Assembly: GCA_016870395.1 (NCBI GenBank)
Contig: VGBT01000008.1
Location: forward strand, 1-64,000
Length of the DNA stretch: 64,000 nt
DNA from: Actinomycetota bacterium
Lineage (GTDB): Bacteria; Actinomycetota; Acidimicrobiia; IMCC26256; JAENVU01
Reading direction: 5' to 3'
Below are positions 28,403-38,769 of the stretch, piece after piece (the stretch's first letter is position 1; every line of letters starts with the position of its first letter). The notes below the pieces were generated by a model that was not told where the DNA came from, did no database searches, and saw nothing but the letters and a program-made list of their open reading frames with translations. Made by a program: the position numbers and the translations under genes.

Positions 28403-29329
28403 TCAGGTTCGGTAGCGCGCGAGCACGCGCAGGGCGGCGAGGCGGCCGGCGGCGCGCAGCTCGGGTGGGTCGACCACCCGGGCGCCGGTGCCGACTCGTA
28501 GCAGGATCCGATCGAGCCACGCGGGCTCGCTCACGGCGACGACGACCCGCTGGCCGCCGCCGGGCAGATCCTCGACCGATTCGGCCGGGAAGCTCTCGGC
28601 GACCCAGCTCGCGCCCGCGGGGAGCTCGAGCGTGACCCGGGGATCGCCTGGACGGGGCGCGTAGAGCACTTCGGGCACCGGGGCCGCGTCGGGATCGAAG
28701 CGCTCGCCCGTGGCGCGCAGCGCCCGGATCCGGTCGACGCGGAACATCCGCTGCTCGTCGCGCAGATGGCAGTAGGCATCGCTGTACCAGCGGCCCAGCG
28801 CGAAGAACGGAGGCCCTGGGTCGATGCGGCGGGTCGTCACCTCGTCTCGTCCCGCGCTCCAGTAGTCGATCTCCACCCGTTCGCCCGCGCTGGCGGCCCG
28901 CCGCAGCTCGGCCAGCTCCGCCGGCGCCCCGAACTCCACGACCACCTCGCTCATGCCGAGTGCGTCCTCGAGCTTCACGAGGGCGGTGGCGAGCGGGCCC
29001 TCCGGATCGGAGCCCTCCACCGCCAGGAGCGCGCGGCCCCCGGCGAGAAGCGCGAGGCCCTCGGAGGGGCTGAGCTGCAGCGGGCGCGTGAAGTAGTCGG
29101 CGAGCCAGAGCTCGACGGTGTCGCCCTCGGCGTACACGTTGATGTAGTCGCCGGGCGTGTACGGCGGGACTCCGACCATCATGATCAACCCGAGATCGCG
29201 CTCGAGCTCGTCACGGGTGATCCGGAAGCGGGCCGCGACCTCGTCCTTGTGAACGCCCGGGCGTGAGGCGAGCCACGGGATCATGGCGAGGACGCGCTGA
29301 AGCTGGTGCTCGGCCTCCGGGCGGCTCAT
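28403..29329 (-). CDS. pafC: WYL-domain regulator PafC-like
   Basis: HTH plus WYL domain (VEIDYWSAGRDEVTTRRIDPGPPFFALGRWYSDAYC); adjacent to PafB-like gene. Confidence 0.88.
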   Translation of the reverse strand: MSRPEAEHQLQRVLAMIPWLASRPGVHKDEVAARFRITRDELERDLGLIMMVGVPPYTPGDYINVYAEGDTVELWLADYFTRPLQLSPSEGLALLAGGRALLAVEGSDPEGPLATALVKLEDALGMSEVVVEFGAPAELAELRRAASAGERVEIDYWSAGRDEVTTRRIDPGPPFFALGRWYSDAYCHLRDEQRMFRVDRIRALRATGERFDPDAAPVPEVLYAPRPGDPRVTLELPAGASWVAESFPAESVEDLPGGGQRVVVAVSEPAWLDRILLRVGTGARVVDPPELRAAGRLAALRVLARYRT

Positions 29330-30243
29330 GTCGCGATCGCCTCGAGCCAGGCGACGACGGCCGCTCGGGCCTCCGGCGGGTCGAGCACCTCGGCATGCTC
29401 GAGGAAGCCGACGACGTAGCTGCACAGCGTGTCGAGGTTCACCGCCTGCAGCGTCACGATCGCCGAGCCGTCGGCGACCGGCTCGACGGCACCGGGCTCG
29501 GCCCGGGCCGCGAGCGCGGCCGCGTGCCCGGCGTCTGCAAGCACGCGCACGGCGAGCGGCCGGCCGCCGCCGTACTGCCAGGGCTGGTCCTCGAGGTAGC
29601 GGTCGGCCCGGAAGTCGGCCGGGACCACGAACGCGCGCGGTGTGCCCGCCTCGACGTCCCCCTCGATCCGGTTGGCTCGGTAGACCCGCATGTCGTCGAC
29701 CCCGTGGTCGAGGCCGACGACGTACCAGTTGCCGAACTTGGAGGTGAGCCCCCACGGCTCCAGCTCGCGCTCGCGGCCGCGGTAGCGGAATCGCACGACC
29801 GCACGGCGCCGGGAGGCTTCGAACAGGGGCACGAGCGACTCGGCGAGCGGCAGCGCGGCAATCGGCACTGCACCCTCGCCTTCGATGCCGCCGAGCTTCA
29901 TGAGCGCGCCCTCCCCCGCGCCGTCGCCGAGGCCGATCGCGGTCACGGCCACGTGGAGCGCGGCGAGCTCGCCGTCGGAGAGGTCGAGCGCAGGCAGGTA
30001 GTACTCGGACGGCGTCACCCGGTAGCGGGTCTCGTTGTCCTTCTCGGTGTCGCGCAGCGGCACGCCCATCGCGCGGAGGCTGGCCTTGTCGCGCTCGAAG
30101 GCCCGGCGGGCCGCCGCCGCGCCCGCCGGATAGCCGAGCGTGGGGTTATTGACGATCTCGGCGCGCGTGAGGCCGCGCCGGGTCTCGAGCAGCGCCGCCA
30201 ACAGGTTGAGCAGGCGCTCGCGACGATCCGGGGCGTCGCTCAC
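29326..30243 (-). CDS. pafB: WYL-domain regulator PafB-like
   Basis: HTH/WYL (VRFRYRGRERELEPWGLTSKFGNWYVVGLDHG); overlaps pafC start. Confidence 0.88.
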   Translation of the reverse strand: MSDAPDRRERLLNLLAALLETRRGLTRAEIVNNPTLGYPAGAAAARRAFERDKASLRAMGVPLRDTEKDNETRYRVTPSEYYLPALDLSDGELAALHVAVTAIGLGDGAGEGALMKLGGIEGEGAVPIAALPLAESLVPLFEASRRRAVVRFRYRGRERELEPWGLTSKFGNWYVVGLDHGVDDMRVYRANRIEGDVEAGTPRAFVVPADFRADRYLEDQPWQYGGGRPLAVRVLADAGHAAALAARAEPGAVEPVADGSAIVTLQAVNLDTLCSYVVGFLEHAEVLDPPEARAAVVAWLEAIAT

Positions 30244-31301
30244 CGCGCTGATGCTGCCACGACGGCGGCCGCACCGGCGCACTCGAAGAGCACCGGGTCG
30301 TCCGCGGCGGCCCGGCCCATCGAGGTGATGCGCAGGTCGTGGCGCTGGAGCGCGCCGAGGGTGTCGGGCGCCGGGATGAGCCGCACGTCGTGGCGCTCGG
30401 CAAGGCCGGCCGCCGCCAGGTCGGTCTCGATCGTCGCCTGGACATCGCCGCCCAGGGCGGGCACGGGCAGGACGACCCTGCTCCGGCACGCGACCGACAA
30501 CGTCGTGAGCGTGTGGTGGGAGACCCCGCGATGGCGCAACCGGGGGTCGGCGAACGACACCCGCAGGCACGCGATCGGGTCGCCCCCGAGGCCGGTCACG
30601 GCATCGAGGAGCGGTCCGACCTCGATCCCGGAGAAGCCGAGCCGCGTGCCGGTGCCCACGATCCCCGGGCCCATCGCGACGACCGCCGCGTCGGCGTGCA
30701 CGACATGGCGTGCGATGGCGAGTGCCGAGAACACCGACACCGCCTCGTAGTCGCCGCCGAACGCGTGGCCACAGGTGATCGTCGCGTCGAGGAGGTCGCG
30801 GGCCTGGAGGTCGGCCACGAGGTCTGAGAGCGCCAGCGGCAGCGCGGCACCGTCGGTCATCACGTACGCGAGCCGTGCCGTCGGGCGGAGCTCCTTGAAC
30901 ACCGCCGCCACCGCGGGGACCTGGCTGTGCAGGGCGGCGGCCACGACGGGCATGCCGTCGATCGAGGTGAGGTCGGCGAGGTCGGGGTCGAGGTGCTCCT
31001 CGGTGCTGCCGACATCGGCTTGCAGGCTCGTGTAGCGCGCCTTGATGATGTGGCCGGGACCCTTCTCGGTCCATTCCGTGCGCGCCAGGTTCCAGTGCAC
31101 CACGTGCCACCCGCCGGTGCCGAGGCCGAGCTCCACGGCGGTGGTGTTCACCACGACGGAATCGCCGGTCGCTACGGTCCCCGTGAGCTGAGACAGCACG
31201 TAGGCGCGCTCGGGGCCGTCGCCGAGGTCGACCTCGACCCGCTGGAGGCCGGGACGCTCCTCCAGCAACGCGACGACCCGGCCGGTCCGGAACGACGGCA
31301 T
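30240..31301 (-). CDS. DUF3866 family protein
   Basis: NTTAVELGLGTGGWHVVHWNL, GHIIKARYTSLQ, SVFSALAIARHVVHADAAVVAMGPGIVGTGT. Confidence 0.8.
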   Translation of the reverse strand: MPSFRTGRVVALLEERPGLQRVEVDLGDGPERAYVLSQLTGTVATGDSVVVNTTAVELGLGTGGWHVVHWNLARTEWTEKGPGHIIKARYTSLQADVGSTEEHLDPDLADLTSIDGMPVVAAALHSQVPAVAAVFKELRPTARLAYVMTDGAALPLALSDLVADLQARDLLDATITCGHAFGGDYEAVSVFSALAIARHVVHADAAVVAMGPGIVGTGTRLGFSGIEVGPLLDAVTGLGGDPIACLRVSFADPRLRHRGVSHHTLTTLSVACRSRVVLPVPALGGDVQATIETDLAAAGLAERHDVRLIPAPDTLGALQRHDLRITSMGRAAADDPVLFECAGAAAVVAASAR

Positions 31302-32660
31302 CTACAGCGAGGCGATGAGGCGCTCGACCCGTTCGTCGCGGGCCTTGAACGGGTCCTTGCAGAGCACGGTGCGCTGTGCCTGATCGTTGAGCTTTAGGTG
31401 GACCCAGTCGACGGTGTAGTCGCGCTTGCGCTCCTTGGCCTTCTTGATGAAGGCGCCGCGCAGGCGCGCTCTCGTGGTCTGGGGCGGGTTGTCGACGGCG
31501 TGGTCGATGTCGGCATCGATCACCGTGCGGTCGACCTGGCCGCGCCGTTCGAGGAGGTAGTAGAGCGACCGCGGACGGCTGATGTCGTGGTACGTCAGGT
31601 CGACGAGCGCGACACGTGGATGGGTGAGCGGGAGGTCGTGCTTGCGCCGGTAGGCCTCGATGAGGTGGTACTTGACGACCCAGTCGACCTCGCGGTCGAG
31701 CTTGAGCGGGTCGTTCTCGAGGTGGGTCATCACGTGCTCCCACATCTCCAGCGCCTGCTGCTCGAGCGGACTGAGCCCGCGCCGCTTCGCGAACCGCAGC
31801 GCGCGGTTGAGGTACTCGGCCTGGATCTCGACCGCGGAGAGCTCGCGGCCGTTCGCCAGGCGCACCCGACGGCGGCACGTGACGTCGTGGGAGATCTCGC
31901 GGATCGCCCGGATCGGGTTCTCGAGGCTGAGGTCACGCCACGGACTCGCCTCCTCCTCGAGCATCCGCAACAGGATCGAGGTGGCGCCGACCTTCAGGAA
32001 CGTCGTGTACTCGCTCATGTTCGAGTCGCCCACGATCACGTGCAGGCGTCGGAAGCGCTCAGCGTCGGCGTGGGGCTCGTCGCGGGTGTTGATGATCGGG
32101 CGGGATCGGGTGGTGGCGCTGGAGACGCCCTCCCAGATGTGCTCCGCGCGTTGCGCGATGCAGTACATCGCGCCGCGGGCAGTCTGAAGCACCTTCCCCG
32201 CGCCGGCGTACACCTGGCGCGAGACCAGAAACGGGATCAGCACGTCGGTGAACTTCGCGAAGTCGCCGTCGCGCTCCACGAGGTAGTTCTCGTGGCATCC
32301 GTACGAGTTGCCCGCCGAGTCGGTGTTGTTCTTGAACAGGTAGACCTCGCCGCGTATCCCTTCCTCGCGGAGGCGTTGCTCGGCGCTGTGCACGAGCCCT
32401 TCGAGGATCCGCTCCCCCGCCTTGTCGTGCACGACGAGGTCGGAGATCGAGTCGCACTCGGGCGTCGCGTACTCGGGATGGCTGCCGACGTCGAGGTAGA
32501 GGCGCGCACCGTTCTCGAGGAACACGTTGCTCGAACGTCCCCAGGACACCACCCGCCGGAACAGGTACCGCGCGACCTCGTCAGGGCTGAGCCGGCGCTG
32601 GCCGCGCAGCGTGCAGGTGACGCCGTACTCGTTCTCGAGCCCGAAGATGCGGCGCTCCAT
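31302..32660 (-). CDS. pafA: Pup-protein ligase PafA
   Basis: [74 protein letters not shown]. Confidence 0.97.
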
Positions 32661-32851
32661 CAGGGGGCACCGACGCTCGCGGTCATGCGCCAAGCGTACC
32701 GGGGTCCTGGAGACCCCCCGGTCGTGCCGGTAGGAACCTCAGCCGAAGCCCCGGTTGCAGGCGCGGGCCTTGTCGAACGCCCGCTCGAGATCGCCGTTCC
32801 GCTCGACGGTGTCGATCGCCTCGGCGTTCGCCGCGATCGAGAGCGTCGCGG

Positions 32852-33541
32852 CTACGAATCGCTGAGCAGGGTTTCGAGCTCCTCGCCCTTGATGCGGCGG
32901 AACGCGCGCTCGGGCCGGGCACGGTCTAGCAGCGCGACTTCGAGCTGGTCGGCGGGCGGCGAGGCGTCGTGGTCGGCGCCGAGAACCTTGGCGCCGAGGC
33001 GCACCGCGGCCCCGAGGTCGAGGCCCGGCTGGTACTCGGCCGCGAGCGCCTCCGCTACGGCTTCGGCCTGGCCGCCGAGAACGGTGTAGCCCTCCTCGTC
33101 CATCACGGTGCCGTCGTAGAGGATGTGGAAGAGCTCGTCAGGCTCCTCGGGGGTCGCACCGACGGACGCGACGAGGATCTCCACCTCGTAGGGCTTCATC
33201 TCGTGGGTGAAGACCTGGCCGAGCGTCTGCGCGTAGGCGTTGGCGAGCGAGTTCGCGGTGACGTCCTCGGGCGAGTACTGGTAGCCCTTGAGGTCGGCGA
33301 GGCGAACACCGCCGATCTTGAGGCTCTGGAACTCGTTGTACTTGCCGACGCCGGCAAACGCGATGCGGTCGTAGATCTCGGAGATCTTGAACAGCGTGCG
33401 GCTCGGGTTCTCCGCGACGATCACCACGCCGGCGGTGCACTCGAGGGCGACCAGGCTGCGGCCGCGCGCGATGCCCTTGCGCGCGTAGTCGGCCCGGTCT
33501 TTCATCAGCTGCTCGGGCGAAACGTAGAACGGCATGCTCAT
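32852..33541 (-). CDS. prcA: 20S proteasome alpha subunit
   Basis: MPFYVSPEQLMKDRADYARKGIARGRSLVALECTAGVVIVAENPS. Confidence 0.97.
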   Translation of the reverse strand: MSMPFYVSPEQLMKDRADYARKGIARGRSLVALECTAGVVIVAENPSRTLFKISEIYDRIAFAGVGKYNEFQSLKIGGVRLADLKGYQYSPEDVTANSLANAYAQTLGQVFTHEMKPYEVEILVASVGATPEEPDELFHILYDGTVMDEEGYTVLGGQAEAVAEALAAEYQPGLDLGAAVRLGAKVLGADHDASPPADQLEVALLDRARPERAFRRIKGEELETLLSDS

Positions 33542-33629: not shown

Positions 33630-34493
33630 TCATTCCGCGCCACCTTCCACTCTCGGCTCGCCGCCGGTGGTCTCGTTGCCGCCGCGCTCCGCGCCGCCGA
33701 GCAGCGCCTGGGCCCGGGTGGCGACCTCGTCGTCGTCCATAGAGCGGAAGCCTTCGGCGTCGATGAGCGCGACGTTGGGGTAGATGCCGCGCACGAGGTC
33801 GGGGCCGCCGGTGGCGACGTCCTCGTCGGCCGCGGCGAACAGGGAGCGGATCGCGAGGGCGATCGCCTGGTCGGCGGCGAGGGTCTCGACCCAGCCCGAC
33901 TTGATCCAGTTGCGGGCGTGGACCCCGCCGGAGCCGTTGGCCTGGAAGTCGGCCTCCTCGTACTTGCCGCCGGCCGCGTCGAAGGAGAACACCCGCCCAC
34001 AGTCTCGGCGGCGGTCGTAGCCGGCGAACAGCGGTACCACCACGAAGCCCTGCATCGCGGCCGGGAGGTTGGCGCGCACCATCTGGGCGAGCTGGTTGGC
34101 CTTGCCCTCGAGGCTGAGGCCCTCGCCCTCCACCTTCTCGTAGTGGCGGAGCTGAACCTGGAAGAGGCGCGCCATCTCCACGGCGGGTCCGGCCGCGCCG
34201 GCGATGGCGATGCCTGAGTGCTCGTCGGCCGGGAGGACCTTCTCGATGCGGCGGTTGGCGATCGTGTAGCCGGCGGTGGCGCGCCGGTCGCCCGCCATCA
34301 CGACCCCGCCGGCGAAGCGGATCGCGACGACGGTGGTGCCGTGGGTGATCTCGAACGGCGGCCCGGCGCTCGTGCCGGCGGCGCCGGAGAGGTGGTCGGG
34401 CGCGACGCGGCGCAGGAGGTCGACGAACGACGGGCCGGGATCGAGGGCGCCGAGCTGCATCGGCAGCGCCCAGGTCGGTTCGGGTGTGGTCAC
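33630..34493 (-). CDS. prcB: 20S proteasome beta subunit
   Basis: Propeptide then GTTVVAIRFAGGVVMAGDRRATAGYTIANRRIEKVLPADEHSGIAIAG (Thr nucleophile at HGTTVV). Confidence 0.97.
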   Translation of the reverse strand: MTTPEPTWALPMQLGALDPGPSFVDLLRRVAPDHLSGAAGTSAGPPFEITHGTTVVAIRFAGGVVMAGDRRATAGYTIANRRIEKVLPADEHSGIAIAGAAGPAVEMARLFQVQLRHYEKVEGEGLSLEGKANQLAQMVRANLPAAMQGFVVVPLFAGYDRRRDCGRVFSFDAAGGKYEEADFQANGSGGVHARNWIKSGWVETLAADQAIALAIRSLFAAADEDVATGGPDLVRGIYPNVALIDAEGFRSMDDDEVATRAQALLGGAERGGNETTGGEPRVEGGAE

Positions 34494-34533: not shown

Positions 34534-34722
34534 TCAACGGACCCGGCGCAGCAGGCGCCATCGGGCGAGGCGTCGCTGGAGGCGACGGAGGTGGCGCTCG
34601 TCGCGGGCCGCGGCGACGACGTCGTCGGGAACCCGCAGCGCCCGGCCCCGCGCCTCGAGGGCCAGGTGCTGGCCGAGGGCGCCCTGGACGGGCCCCTGCG
34701 CGCCCAGACCGCCGAAGCTCAC
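34534..34722 (-). CDS. Small basic protein (62 aa) between pup and prcB, unknown
   Basis: GTG start overlaps (GTGA) the stop of the upstream zinc-binding ORF; Arg-rich, DERHLRRLQRRLARWRLLRRVR. Confidence 0.4.
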   Translation of the reverse strand: MSFGGLGAQGPVQGALGQHLALEARGRALRVPDDVVAAARDERHLRRLQRRLARWRLLRRVR

Positions 34723-35009
34723 CTCACCAGCGCGTAAGCCTGTTCGCGCCCTGTGCGCGTCGGCCGCGCGTTGTAGCGGCGCTGATACGCGAGGAACAGC
34801 TCTCGGTTCGCTTCGCGCCAGGCCTGGACTCGCCGGATCCGAGCTTCACGATTCCGCCGGTAGTCCTCGCGTCGGCGGTTCCGATCACAGTCCTTGCAGA
34901 TATTGCGGAGGCCATCTCGGTTCGCGGCGGCTCGGTAGAACGCAGTCGCTGGCTTCGTCTGCCCGCAATCCCGGCAAGCCTTTGAGTCGGGATTGTCCGC
35001 AATAGTCAC
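34719..35009 (-). CDS. Small CxxC/CxxC zinc-binding, HNH-like protein
   Basis: [53 protein letters not shown] start overlaps pup stop (GTGA). Confidence 0.72.
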
Positions 35010-35200
35010 TCACCTCCCTTTTGTACGTACGACCGCACGAACTCCTCGGCGTTCACTTCGAGCACGGAGTCGATCTCGTCCAGGAGGTCGTCGAGCTCCT
35101 CCTTCAGCGCCTCCCCCTGGTTGACGGGCGCGGCGACCTCGGCCTCGTCGTTAGCCCGCTCCTTCGGGGCGGGCTTCTTCTTCTGCTCCCGTTCGGGCAT
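35006..35200 (-). CDS. pup: Prokaryotic ubiquitin-like protein Pup (C-terminal Gly-Gly-Glu)
   Basis: [31 protein letters not shown]. Confidence 0.97.
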
Positions 35201-35248: not shown

Positions 35249-36733
35249 CTATTGCGCCAGGGCGTCCACCAGCTCGGCCGGTGTCGGGCACCGGTGGAAC
35301 AACCGCTCGACGTGCGCCCGGCTTCCCTTGAGCGGTTCCATCATCGGGATCCGCCGCAGGGGGTCCGTGCCCACGTCGAGGATGATGCTGTCCCAGTTGG
35401 CCGCGACCACCGCTTCGGGCCAGCGGGCCAGGCATCCGCCCCGGAAGTAGGCACGGGTCCGGCCGGGAGCCTCGGTCACCGCGGCGAGCACGGCGTCCTC
35501 GGCGACCAGGCGTTCGATCTTGCCCGCCCGCACCAGCCGCTCGTAGAGCGACCGCTCGGGGCGCACGTCGTGGTACTGGAGGTCGAGCAGCGCGAGCTTG
35601 GGGTCGTCCCAGTCGAGCCTGTCGCGCTCGCGGTACGCCTCGAGCAGGGCGAGCTTGGTCACCCAGTCGAGCGTGCCGTCGAGGCCCATCGGGTCGCGCT
35701 CCAGCGCGCCGAGCACCTGCTCCCAGCGGACCAGCACCGTCTCGGCCACCTCCCCGCCGCACTCCTCCAGCCCCACCTCGTCGGCGTACTTCTGGGCGAG
35801 GCGAAGGAACTCCCACTGCAACTCCACCGCGGTACAGGACCCGCCCTCGGTCAGGTCGACCGTCGCGCGACACGTGAGGTCGTGGCTCACTGTGCGCACC
35901 GCGTGCACCGGCCCGACGATCGAAAGGTCCTTGCCGATGAAGTCGTCCTCGATCATGGCGAGCACGATGGCGGTCGTACCCACCTTCAGGAACGTCGACG
36001 TCTCGCAGAGGTTCGCGTCGCCGGCGATCACGTGGAGGCGGCGGTACTTCTGGGGATCCGCGTGCGGCTCGTCGCGCGTGTTGACCAACGGCCGCTTCAA
36101 CGTCGTCTCGAGCCCGACCTCCTCCTCGAAGAAGTCGGCTCGCGAGGAGATCTGGTAGTCGACGGCCTCCGCGCCGTTCTCGGCGCCGACCTTCCCCGCA
36201 CCCGTGAACAGCTGGCGACTCACGAACCAGGGCAGCAAATTGCGCACCAGCGACGCGAACGGCACCGTGCGGTCCACAAGGTAGTTCTCGTGGCACCCGT
36301 ACGAGTTGCCCTTGCCGTCGGAGTTGTTCTTGTAGACGACGACCTCCTGGCCTGGCTCCATGATGCGGCGCGCGGCCTGCATTGACCGGGCGAGGATCCG
36401 CTCCCCCGCCTTGTCGGCCGCTACGAGCTCGAGCGCGTCCAGGCACTCCGGCGTGGAGTACTCGGGGTGCGCGTGGTCGACGTAGTAGCGGGCACCGTTG
36501 GTGAGCACGGTGTTCACCAGATGGGTCTCGACCTCGGGGGCCTGGCCGCCGTCGCGCCCGAACCCGCGCGCGTCGCGCCCCGGCGACTCGTCCTCGAAGT
36601 CCCAGCCGACGCGCCGGTGCTCCACGTACCCGTTGATGAGCAGAGACGACGCGAGCACCGGGTTCGCGTCGTGCGCGCCGCGCAACGAGACGCCGTACTC
36701 CGTCTCGATCCCGCACACCTTCGGCACTGCCAC
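35249..36733 (-). CDS. dop: Depupylase/deamidase Dop
   Basis: [55 protein letters not shown]. Confidence 0.96.
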   Translation of the reverse strand: MAVPKVCGIETEYGVSLRGAHDANPVLASSLLINGYVEHRRVGWDFEDESPGRDARGFGRDGGQAPEVETHLVNTVLTNGARYYVDHAHPEYSTPECLDALELVAADKAGERILARSMQAARRIMEPGQEVVVYKNNSDGKGNSYGCHENYLVDRTVPFASLVRNLLPWFVSRQLFTGAGKVGAENGAEAVDYQISSRADFFEEEVGLETTLKRPLVNTRDEPHADPQKYRRLHVIAGDANLCETSTFLKVGTTAIVLAMIEDDFIGKDLSIVGPVHAVRTVSHDLTCRATVDLTEGGSCTAVELQWEFLRLAQKYADEVGLEECGGEVAETVLVRWEQVLGALERDPMGLDGTLDWVTKLALLEAYRERDRLDWDDPKLALLDLQYHDVRPERSLYERLVRAGKIERLVAEDAVLAAVTEAPGRTRAYFRGGCLARWPEAVVAANWDSIILDVGTDPLRRIPMMEPLKGSRAHVERLFHRCPTPAELVDALAQ

Positions 36734-36796: not shown

Positions 36797-38557
36797 CTAG
36801 AGGTACTGGCCGGTGGTGACGCGCTCGATCTGGCGTCCGCCGCCCTGGTCCACGTCGCCCTCGGAAAGTAGCGTGCGCACGAACACGATCCGCTCGCCCT
36901 TCTTGCCCGAGATTTTCGCCCAGTCGTCGGGGTTGGTCGTGTTCGGCAAATCCTCGTGCTCGCGATACTCCTGCTTGATCGAGTCGAGCAGGTCCTGGGT
37001 GCAGATCCCGCGCGCGCCGCCCGCGATCTGTCGCTTGATCGACAGCTTCTTCGCGCGCCGCACGACGTTCTCGATCATGGCGCCCGACGAGAAGTCCTTG
37101 AAGAACAGAGTCTCCTTGTCGCCGTTCTGGTACGTGACCTCGAGGAACCGGTTCGCCTCGTCGGCCGCGTACATCGCCTCGACCGCGCGATCGATCATCA
37201 CGCGCACCGCAGCGGCGGCGTCGCCGTCATGGTGCTTGGTCTCGTCCTCGGCGATCGGCAGGGTTGGCAGCAGATAGCGGGAGAAGATCTGCTTCGCAGA
37301 CGCCTCGTCGGGGCGTTCGATCTTGATCTTCACGTCGAGGCGCCCGGGGCGGAGGATCGCGGGGTCGATCAGGTCCTCCCGGTTCGACGCGCCGATGACG
37401 ATCACGTTCTTGAGGCTCTCCACCCCGTCGATCTCGGCAAGGAGCTGGGGAACGATGGTGCTCTCGATGTCGGAGGAGATCCCGGTGCCGCGGGTGCGGA
37501 ACAGGGAGTCCATCTCGTCGAAGAACACGATGACGGGCACGCCCTCCTCGCTCTTCTCCCGGGCGCGCTCGAAGATGAGCCGGATCTGACGCTCCGTCTC
37601 GCCTACGTACTTGTTGAGCAGTTCGGGGCCCTTGATGTTCAGGAAGTAGGAACGGGTCTTCGCGTTGCCCGTCTTCTCGGCCACGCGCTGCGCGAGCGAG
37701 TTGGCGACCGCCTTGGCGATGAGCGTCTTGCCGCACCCCGGCGGGCCGTAGAGCAGGATGCCCTTCGGTGGCGCCAGATCGTGCTCGTGGAACAGCTCCG
37801 CATGCAGGTACGGCAGCTCGACCGCGTCGTGGATCTGCTCGATCTGGTCGTCGAGGCCGCCGACGTCGGCGTAGGTGATGTCGGGCACCTCCTCGAGGAC
37901 GAGCTCCTCCACCTCCGGGCGGGGGATGCGCTCCACGAGCAGCCCCGAGCGCGCCTCCATCAGCACGTGCTCGCCTGCGCGCAGCCGCACGCCGAGCAGA
38001 TCGTCGGCCAGCTCGCACACCCGCTCCTCGTCGGCGCGACCCACCACCAGCGCGCGCAGACCGTCCTCGAGCAGCTCCTTGAAGACCACCACCTCGCCCT
38101 GGGACTCCGGGGCGCGCGCGAGCACCACGTTGAGCGACTCGTTGAGGACGACCTCCTGGCCGCGTGACAGCTCCTCGACCTCGAGCTCGGGGTGCACGTT
38201 GACCCGCATCTTGCGTCCGGCCGTGAACACGTCGACGGTGCCGTCGTCGTTGGCCCCCAGCAAGGTGCCGTAGCCGGACGGGGGCATCGTGAGCTTCTCT
38301 ACCTCCTCACGCAGCGCCGCGATGTGCTCGCGCGCTTCGCGCAAGGTGGCCGAGAGCCGCTCGTTCTGGGACACTGCCTGCGCCAGCTGACCCTTGGTCT
38401 CGAGCAGCCGCTCCTCCAGGGTTCGCACCCGCTTGGGCGCATCTTGGAGCCGGCGCCGGAGGAGCACCATGTCCTCCTCGAGCGTCTTGATCTGGTCCTG
38501 GAGCTCGCCGACCTGGCGCTCGTACTCGGCGAGGCGTCGTTCGTGCTCGGCAGCCAC
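36797..38557 (-). CDS. arc: Proteasomal AAA+ ATPase ARC/Mpa
   Basis: N-terminal coiled coil, [45 protein letters not shown]-terminal GQYL. Confidence 0.97.
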
Positions 38558-38769
38558 GATGCCTCCTCCTCTCGCTCCTCGTGACGCCATGACCGGTCGG
38601 CCACGGCCTCTACGCGGGACCCTAGCGATCCCACGTCCTCCCGATGTGCATTTTCCCCGAAGGGGCCTGGTGAATTGCTGTCGCGTGCCGATATGTCGGT
38701 ACGCTCCCATCGACCACCCCCCGCTCCACCCTGAGCCCCCGCTCGGGGCGACCTCGAGGAGAAGGCCAC

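Follow-up and report, generated by a model that had tools for sequence, protein, structure and literature searches.

The stretch of DNA analysed here, 64,000 nucleotides in length and referred to below as the window, contains a complete Pup-proteasome locus on its minus strand, in the order arc, dop, pup, zn96, orf62, prcB, prcA, pafA, a DUF3866 gene, pafB and pafC (Table 1). Published accounts of the actinobacterial locus give the order arc/mpa-dop-pup-prcB-prcA-pafA-pafBC (PMC3511204, PMC8223512). An earlier note on this DNA had reported two open reading frames between pup and prcB, chained by GTGA overlaps, and both are present in the window sequence. The TGA of pup meets the GTG of zn96 at AGGTGAGTGACT and the TGA of zn96 meets the GTG of orf62 at GAGGTGAGCTTC, with a 4-nt GTGA overlap at each joint. 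Since the pup stop codon overlaps the zn96 start codon, translation of zn96 together with Pup is probable, as the note had proposed. We call the space between pup and prcB the slot.

Table 1. Genes of the Pup-proteasome locus (window positions)
Gene	Coordinates	Strand	Basis and remarks
arc, proteasomal ATPase	36797..38710	-	named by sequence and position; start codon uncertain
dop, depupylase	35249..36733	-	named by sequence and position; tblastn partner of the dop genes in all slot loci
pup, 64 aa, C-terminus KGGE	35006..35200	-	Pfam Pup, E = 1.4e-20; TIGR03687, E = 1.6e-20
zn96, 96 aa, GTG start	34719..35009	-	N-terminal zinc module of endonuclease VII (EndoVII), without catalytic core
orf62, 62 aa, Arg-rich, GTG start	34534..34722	-	homologues only in three genomes of the same family
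prcB, 20S proteasome beta subunit	33630..34493	-	TIGR03690, E = 4e-89
prcA, 20S proteasome alpha subunit	32852..33541	-	TIGR03691, E = 4e-96
pafA, Pup ligase	31302..32693	-	named by sequence and position; start codon uncertain
DUF3866 gene, between pafA and pafB	30240..31301	-	DUF3866, E = 1e-114
pafB, WYL-domain half of the PafBC damage regulator	29326..30243	-	Pfam WYL, E = 2e-14; WCX, E = 1e-13; end points inferred
pafC, other half of PafBC	28403..29329	-	Pfam HTH_PafC, E = 1.7e-29; WYL; WCX; end points inferred

The product of zn96 carries the motif CRDC...CKDC and is strongly basic (pI 10.8; 25 Lys and Arg against 12 Asp and Glu). It matches the phage endonuclease VII family PHROG 1035 (E = 7e-16) and PHROG 2340 (E = 1e-10) over the part that lies ahead of the catalytic core. 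These matches rule out a chance reading frame and bear out the earlier description of a zinc protein of a nucleic-acid-binding type. Alignment to full-length enzymes of other genomes places the end of zn96 at the linker just before the core, with all four cysteines kept, and zn96 is 46% identical to the corresponding module of one slot EndoVII. This zinc/basic N-terminal module is found in phage and slot EndoVIIs but is not universal in the EndoVII family. An AlphaFold model of zn96 showed a compact fold with a zinc site, built from short strands and a long helix (pLDDT 96-97 at residues 11-70). Its structural neighbours among viral proteins are mainly HNH-type or other endonucleases, or are unnamed, and a fold search of the PDB gave a weak lead only (Hpy99I, E = 0.55). 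The PF02945 core, marked by HxDH and by a CxxC...CxxC zinc site of its own, was found neither in zn96, nor in nearby frames, nor elsewhere in the window genome, which rules out a full EndoVII disrupted by a frameshift. Judged by its sequence, zn96 is the N-terminal zinc/basic-helix module of EndoVII, the leading half of a DNA-cutting enzyme of phage type, and as such could bind DNA or protein at most, with no means of cutting.

orf62 encodes a very basic protein (pI 12.0; 14 Lys and Arg, none of them Lys) that matched no family in searches of the Pfam, TIGR and PHROG profile libraries. Homologues were found only in G001, G003 and G004, all of the same family (E = 6e-24 to 1.5e-33) and always between pup and prcB, giving the gene order pup-orf62-prcB, and in most comparisons the differences concentrate at third codon positions. 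Together these observations rule out a chance reading frame. Nor is there support for orf62 as the lost C-terminus of EndoVII, given that it has homologues of its own in family members without EndoVII. In G006, which belongs to the same genus as the window genome, pup is joined straight to prcB by an ATGA overlap, and both orf62 and zn96 are missing (locus L007). orf62 is therefore a family-specific gene that is conserved in this slot, and it has probably been there longer than zn96. The earlier note had described the two frames as a two-gene insertion. Two extra genes are indeed present, but the retention of orf62 in zn96-free family members indicates two separate events, orf62 being older and family-wide and EndoVII in this slot being phylum-wide.

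We surveyed 296 genomes of the window's class, searching with zn96 and then with the PF02945 profile at its cut-off. The zn96 query found matches in 18 class genomes besides its own, and in 15 of these 18 the match adjoins pup, prcB or both. The slot genes matched in this way are mostly whole EndoVIIs of about 150-190 aa. PF02945 was confirmed in the three slot genes that were checked (E = 2e-17 to 2e-23), and a slot EndoVII aligned with T4 endonuclease VII (1e7d; E = 4e-12) through the HxDH motif and the zinc cysteines. Across the class, PF02945 scored above its cut-off in 21/296 genomes, in 15 of which the gene lies directly upstream of prcB; the majority of pup-prcB gaps in the class are short and contain no gene. 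Further slot loci were found in a public genome collection, three Geodermatophilus genomes among them, and a phylum-wide sample added several more families. A tree test did not reject a single origin of all slot EndoVIIs (P = 0.40). On the evidence of gene content and order, the pairing of nuclease and proteasome genes, in the form of a full-length EndoVII between pup and prcB, is recurrent across Actinomycetota. An exception among the slot genes is L011, where the catalytic core has been lost in frame, and the slot EndoVII of L022 has a broken frame, so that the slot gene, as judged from these sequences, decays in several lineages.

Some loci in the survey depart from the simple arrangement. 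In other families of the phylum, L170, L172-L175, L177 and L178 hold a tandem pair of EndoVIIs, or one EndoVII and a partial second, between pup and prcB, and some of the frames in these tandem loci are interrupted. The slot EndoVIIs of Geodermatophilus (L038, L039 and L041) apparently have two zinc modules before the core, and damage elements of the kind described below are absent from these loci. At L119 (G082) and L128 (G015), which belong to a single genus of the order, the pup-prcB gap measures 844-887 nt and is filled by a gene of another kind, about 280 aa long and without a Pfam match. NCBI labels similar Streptomyces genes endonuclease VII domain proteins, so individual genes of this kind have surely been annotated. 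In the open literature, to which the search was confined, we found no mention of an EndoVII at the pup-prcB slot.

The earlier note had also remarked that zn96 is less GC-biased than its neighbours and had taken this as a hint of acquisition. The measurement holds, with a GC3 of 0.73 for zn96 against 0.88-0.94 for the other locus genes listed, but the interpretation does not, because low GC3 is common to slot EndoVIIs. In 27 of the 27 slot loci scored (some genomes being counted twice), the GC3 of prcB exceeds that of the slot gene, by 0.03-0.22. Low GC3 is therefore ruled out as a sign of recent capture and does not date zn96.

In class relatives, the sequence between pup and the start of the slot EndoVII contains one of two kinds of element, either TTGTCACAC-N8-TACNNT-like or CGAACN4GTTCG. 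The former fits the published PafBC/RecA-NDp consensus, tTGTCRgtg-8nt-TannnT (PMC5656591), and the latter is a LexA box (SOS box). To score PafBC-type elements, we used a weight matrix whose training set was the recA promoters of these genomes alone. It gave 12.5-33 at 12 slot loci and no more than 8.6 at any of the roughly 128,000 positions in the window. Altogether, a predicted damage element lies upstream of EndoVII at 17 of 21 class slot loci, 12 of them PafBC-type (RecA-NDp) and 5 LexA (L009, L010, L027, L028 and L029). Scanned over the same length, none of 40 EndoVII-free pup-prcB gaps contained either element, which rules out that the PafBC-type motif belongs to such gaps in general (Fisher P = 1e-11 for element against EndoVII presence, although the loci are related and the value is only a guide). 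The recA genes of genomes with a slot EndoVII also bear PafBC-type or LexA elements. Outside the class, most slot EndoVIIs have no damage element, so the motif is not supported as a phylum-wide rule.

In all but one of the scored loci with a PafBC-type element, 6-8 nt separate its end from the EndoVII start codon, suggesting that the transcripts may be leaderless. At 13 loci the distance between the EndoVII stop codon and the prcB start, as estimated, is -8 to +22 nt, and with this spacing the element should drive prcBA too. The slot EndoVII of the class is thus probably induced by DNA damage through its predicted PafBC-type or LexA elements. In the window operon we found no PafBC-type element and no LexA box. 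Both elements are present at recA of the window genome. PafB and PafC are encoded in the window, which counts for the reading of zn96 preferred below. The suggestion in the earlier note of a link to DNA damage accordingly holds for the gene family, by way of the relatives' whole enzymes and their PafBC-type or LexA elements, and fails for the window copy, which has neither the core nor a damage promoter.

What became of zn96 itself can be read in more than one way. On balance we favour its descent as a nuclease-less derivative of a slot EndoVII, an enzyme that in whole form would be made in relatives upon damage together with extra 20S proteasome, with the window copy most likely being a remnant. 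The stop codon at the linker, together with the 15 of 18 relatives in which the match adjoins pup or prcB, favours derivation from a slot EndoVII, and the broken copies at L011 and L022 favour a remnant, as does the lack of zn96 in the rest of its family. Several observations count against this reading. In a tree of 82 columns, grouping zn96 with the long-type slot EndoVIIs was neither rejected nor favoured (P = 0.08); zn96 has kept an open frame, all four cysteines and both of its coupled junctions, which decay need not have spared; no intermediate, in the form of remains of a promoter or a core, is visible around zn96 in the window; and most slot EndoVIIs outside the class have no damage elements.

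The intact state of zn96 leads to the possibility, which we consider less probable, that it is a tamed and functional protein, a catalysis-free EndoVII recognition module kept for its binding to branched or damaged DNA, or for competing there with nucleases, and made constantly with Pup by coupling. Apart from its open frame, full set of zinc ligands, confident fold model and strongly basic character, its stop codon falls on a domain boundary, its GTGA joints to pup and orf62 are seamless, and the slot copy of L011 has likewise lost its core in frame. Set against this, zn96 occurs in a single genome, it is missing from all its family relatives, and another slot copy, L022, shows plain decay. 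A remnant thus most likely describes the window copy better than a tamed DNA-binding protein does. It is unlikely that zn96 was never a slot EndoVII and instead represents an independent capture of a phage endonuclease fragment. For this reading speak the frequency of the module in phages, the lack of a damage element at zn96 and its absence from the rest of the family, as well as the tree, in which zn96 falls together with phage genes and a single slot gene, without resolution inside the group. The best matches of zn96, however, are by far slot genes of the same order and class (46% identity, E = 1e-17), whereas the best phage match, from a larger database, reaches 40% and E = 7e-5. Low GC3 is normal for slot copies, and for a captured fragment to land in the very slot used by the EndoVII family would be a large coincidence.

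The absence from all relatives that the earlier note had named as counting against its reading is true of zn96 inside its own family, where the window genome is the only holder, but not in the order and class, where relatives were found. That note had also raised the idea that the inserted genes are accessory factors of the proteasome, such as an adaptor or a regulator of Pup, Arc or the 20S particle. For zn96 and orf62 together we regard this as very improbable. Position and translational coupling speak for it, as does the conservation of orf62 in the slot within the family, but zn96 is a member of a nuclease module family, orf62 has no library family match, and most relatives have neither gene, pup and prcB being directly joined even in the same genus. 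Nor did we find the conserved presence with pup and prcBA expected of a core component, zn96 occurring in 1 genome and orf62 in 4 genomes of one family. Nothing in the analysis spoke for a proteasome adaptor.

For the relatives in the class, the preferred reading, with zn96 derived from a slot EndoVII, suggests the following sequence of events. DNA damage would switch on a promoter within the operon, of PafBC type or under LexA control, and so lead to production of the whole slot EndoVII; the enzyme would be expected, from its sequence, to cut branched DNA. The same internal promoter would read into prcBA, such that more 20S proteasome is made alongside EndoVII. After repair, the proteasome may remove EndoVII, which would fit other PafBC targets; this step draws on the reported pupylation of those targets (PMC8223512). 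In the window genome the core and the damage promoter would have gone, leaving a zinc module translated by coupling from pup. Tentatively, the actinomycetotal operon may hold a damage cassette, in which one internal promoter controlled by PafBC or LexA makes a phage-derived branched-DNA nuclease and the extra 20S proteasome that removes it; in some lineages, including that of the window, the nuclease may have shrunk to its recognition module, a Pup-controlled, non-cutting DNA binder.

The Pup-proteasome locus encodes PafBC, and after damage the proteasome clears repair proteins, but accounts of the locus in the open literature searched describe no repair enzyme inside the operon. The slot EndoVIIs of one class, with elements pointing into prcBA, offer a direct test of whether proteasome supply is damage-induced, and the enzyme itself is a nuclease that is probably among the clients of pupylation. 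The window copy illustrates that a slot gene can lose its catalytic half.

Several known systems can be compared with this arrangement. One is the phage-type recombination endonuclease VII (T4 gp49; PF02945, PHROG 1035). Like many phage EndoVIIs, zn96 has the N-terminal zinc/basic-helix module, and the whole slot genes share the catalytic core of the T4 enzyme. Unlike the phage enzyme, zn96 has no core. The slot genes differ in being chromosomal, in their place between pup and prcB and, within the class, in the PafBC-type or LexA element that most of them have. In gene order and in linkage to PafBC, the window agrees with the Pup-proteasome locus of Actinobacteria, but in accounts of that locus pup is directly upstream of prcBA and no nuclease is named, whereas the window and its relatives have an EndoVII or a fragment of one in the gap (PMC3511204, PMC8223512). 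The promoter consensus of the mycobacterial PafBC/RecA-NDp regulon matches the element that precedes the slot EndoVII (PMC5656591, PMC8223512). In M. smegmatis, neither pupylation nor the proteasome components were influenced by PafBC under the conditions tested (PMC5656591). Unlike that regulon, slot loci of the class hold the element inside the operon, ahead of prcBA, and the window operon holds none. Finally, WhiA is a relative of homing endonucleases in which catalysis has been lost (PMC4255298), and it resembles zn96 in being an actinobacterial member of a nuclease family without catalytic residues. The two differ in nuclease fold, and WhiA is known to have kept DNA binding (PMC4255298), whereas for zn96 such binding is predicted.
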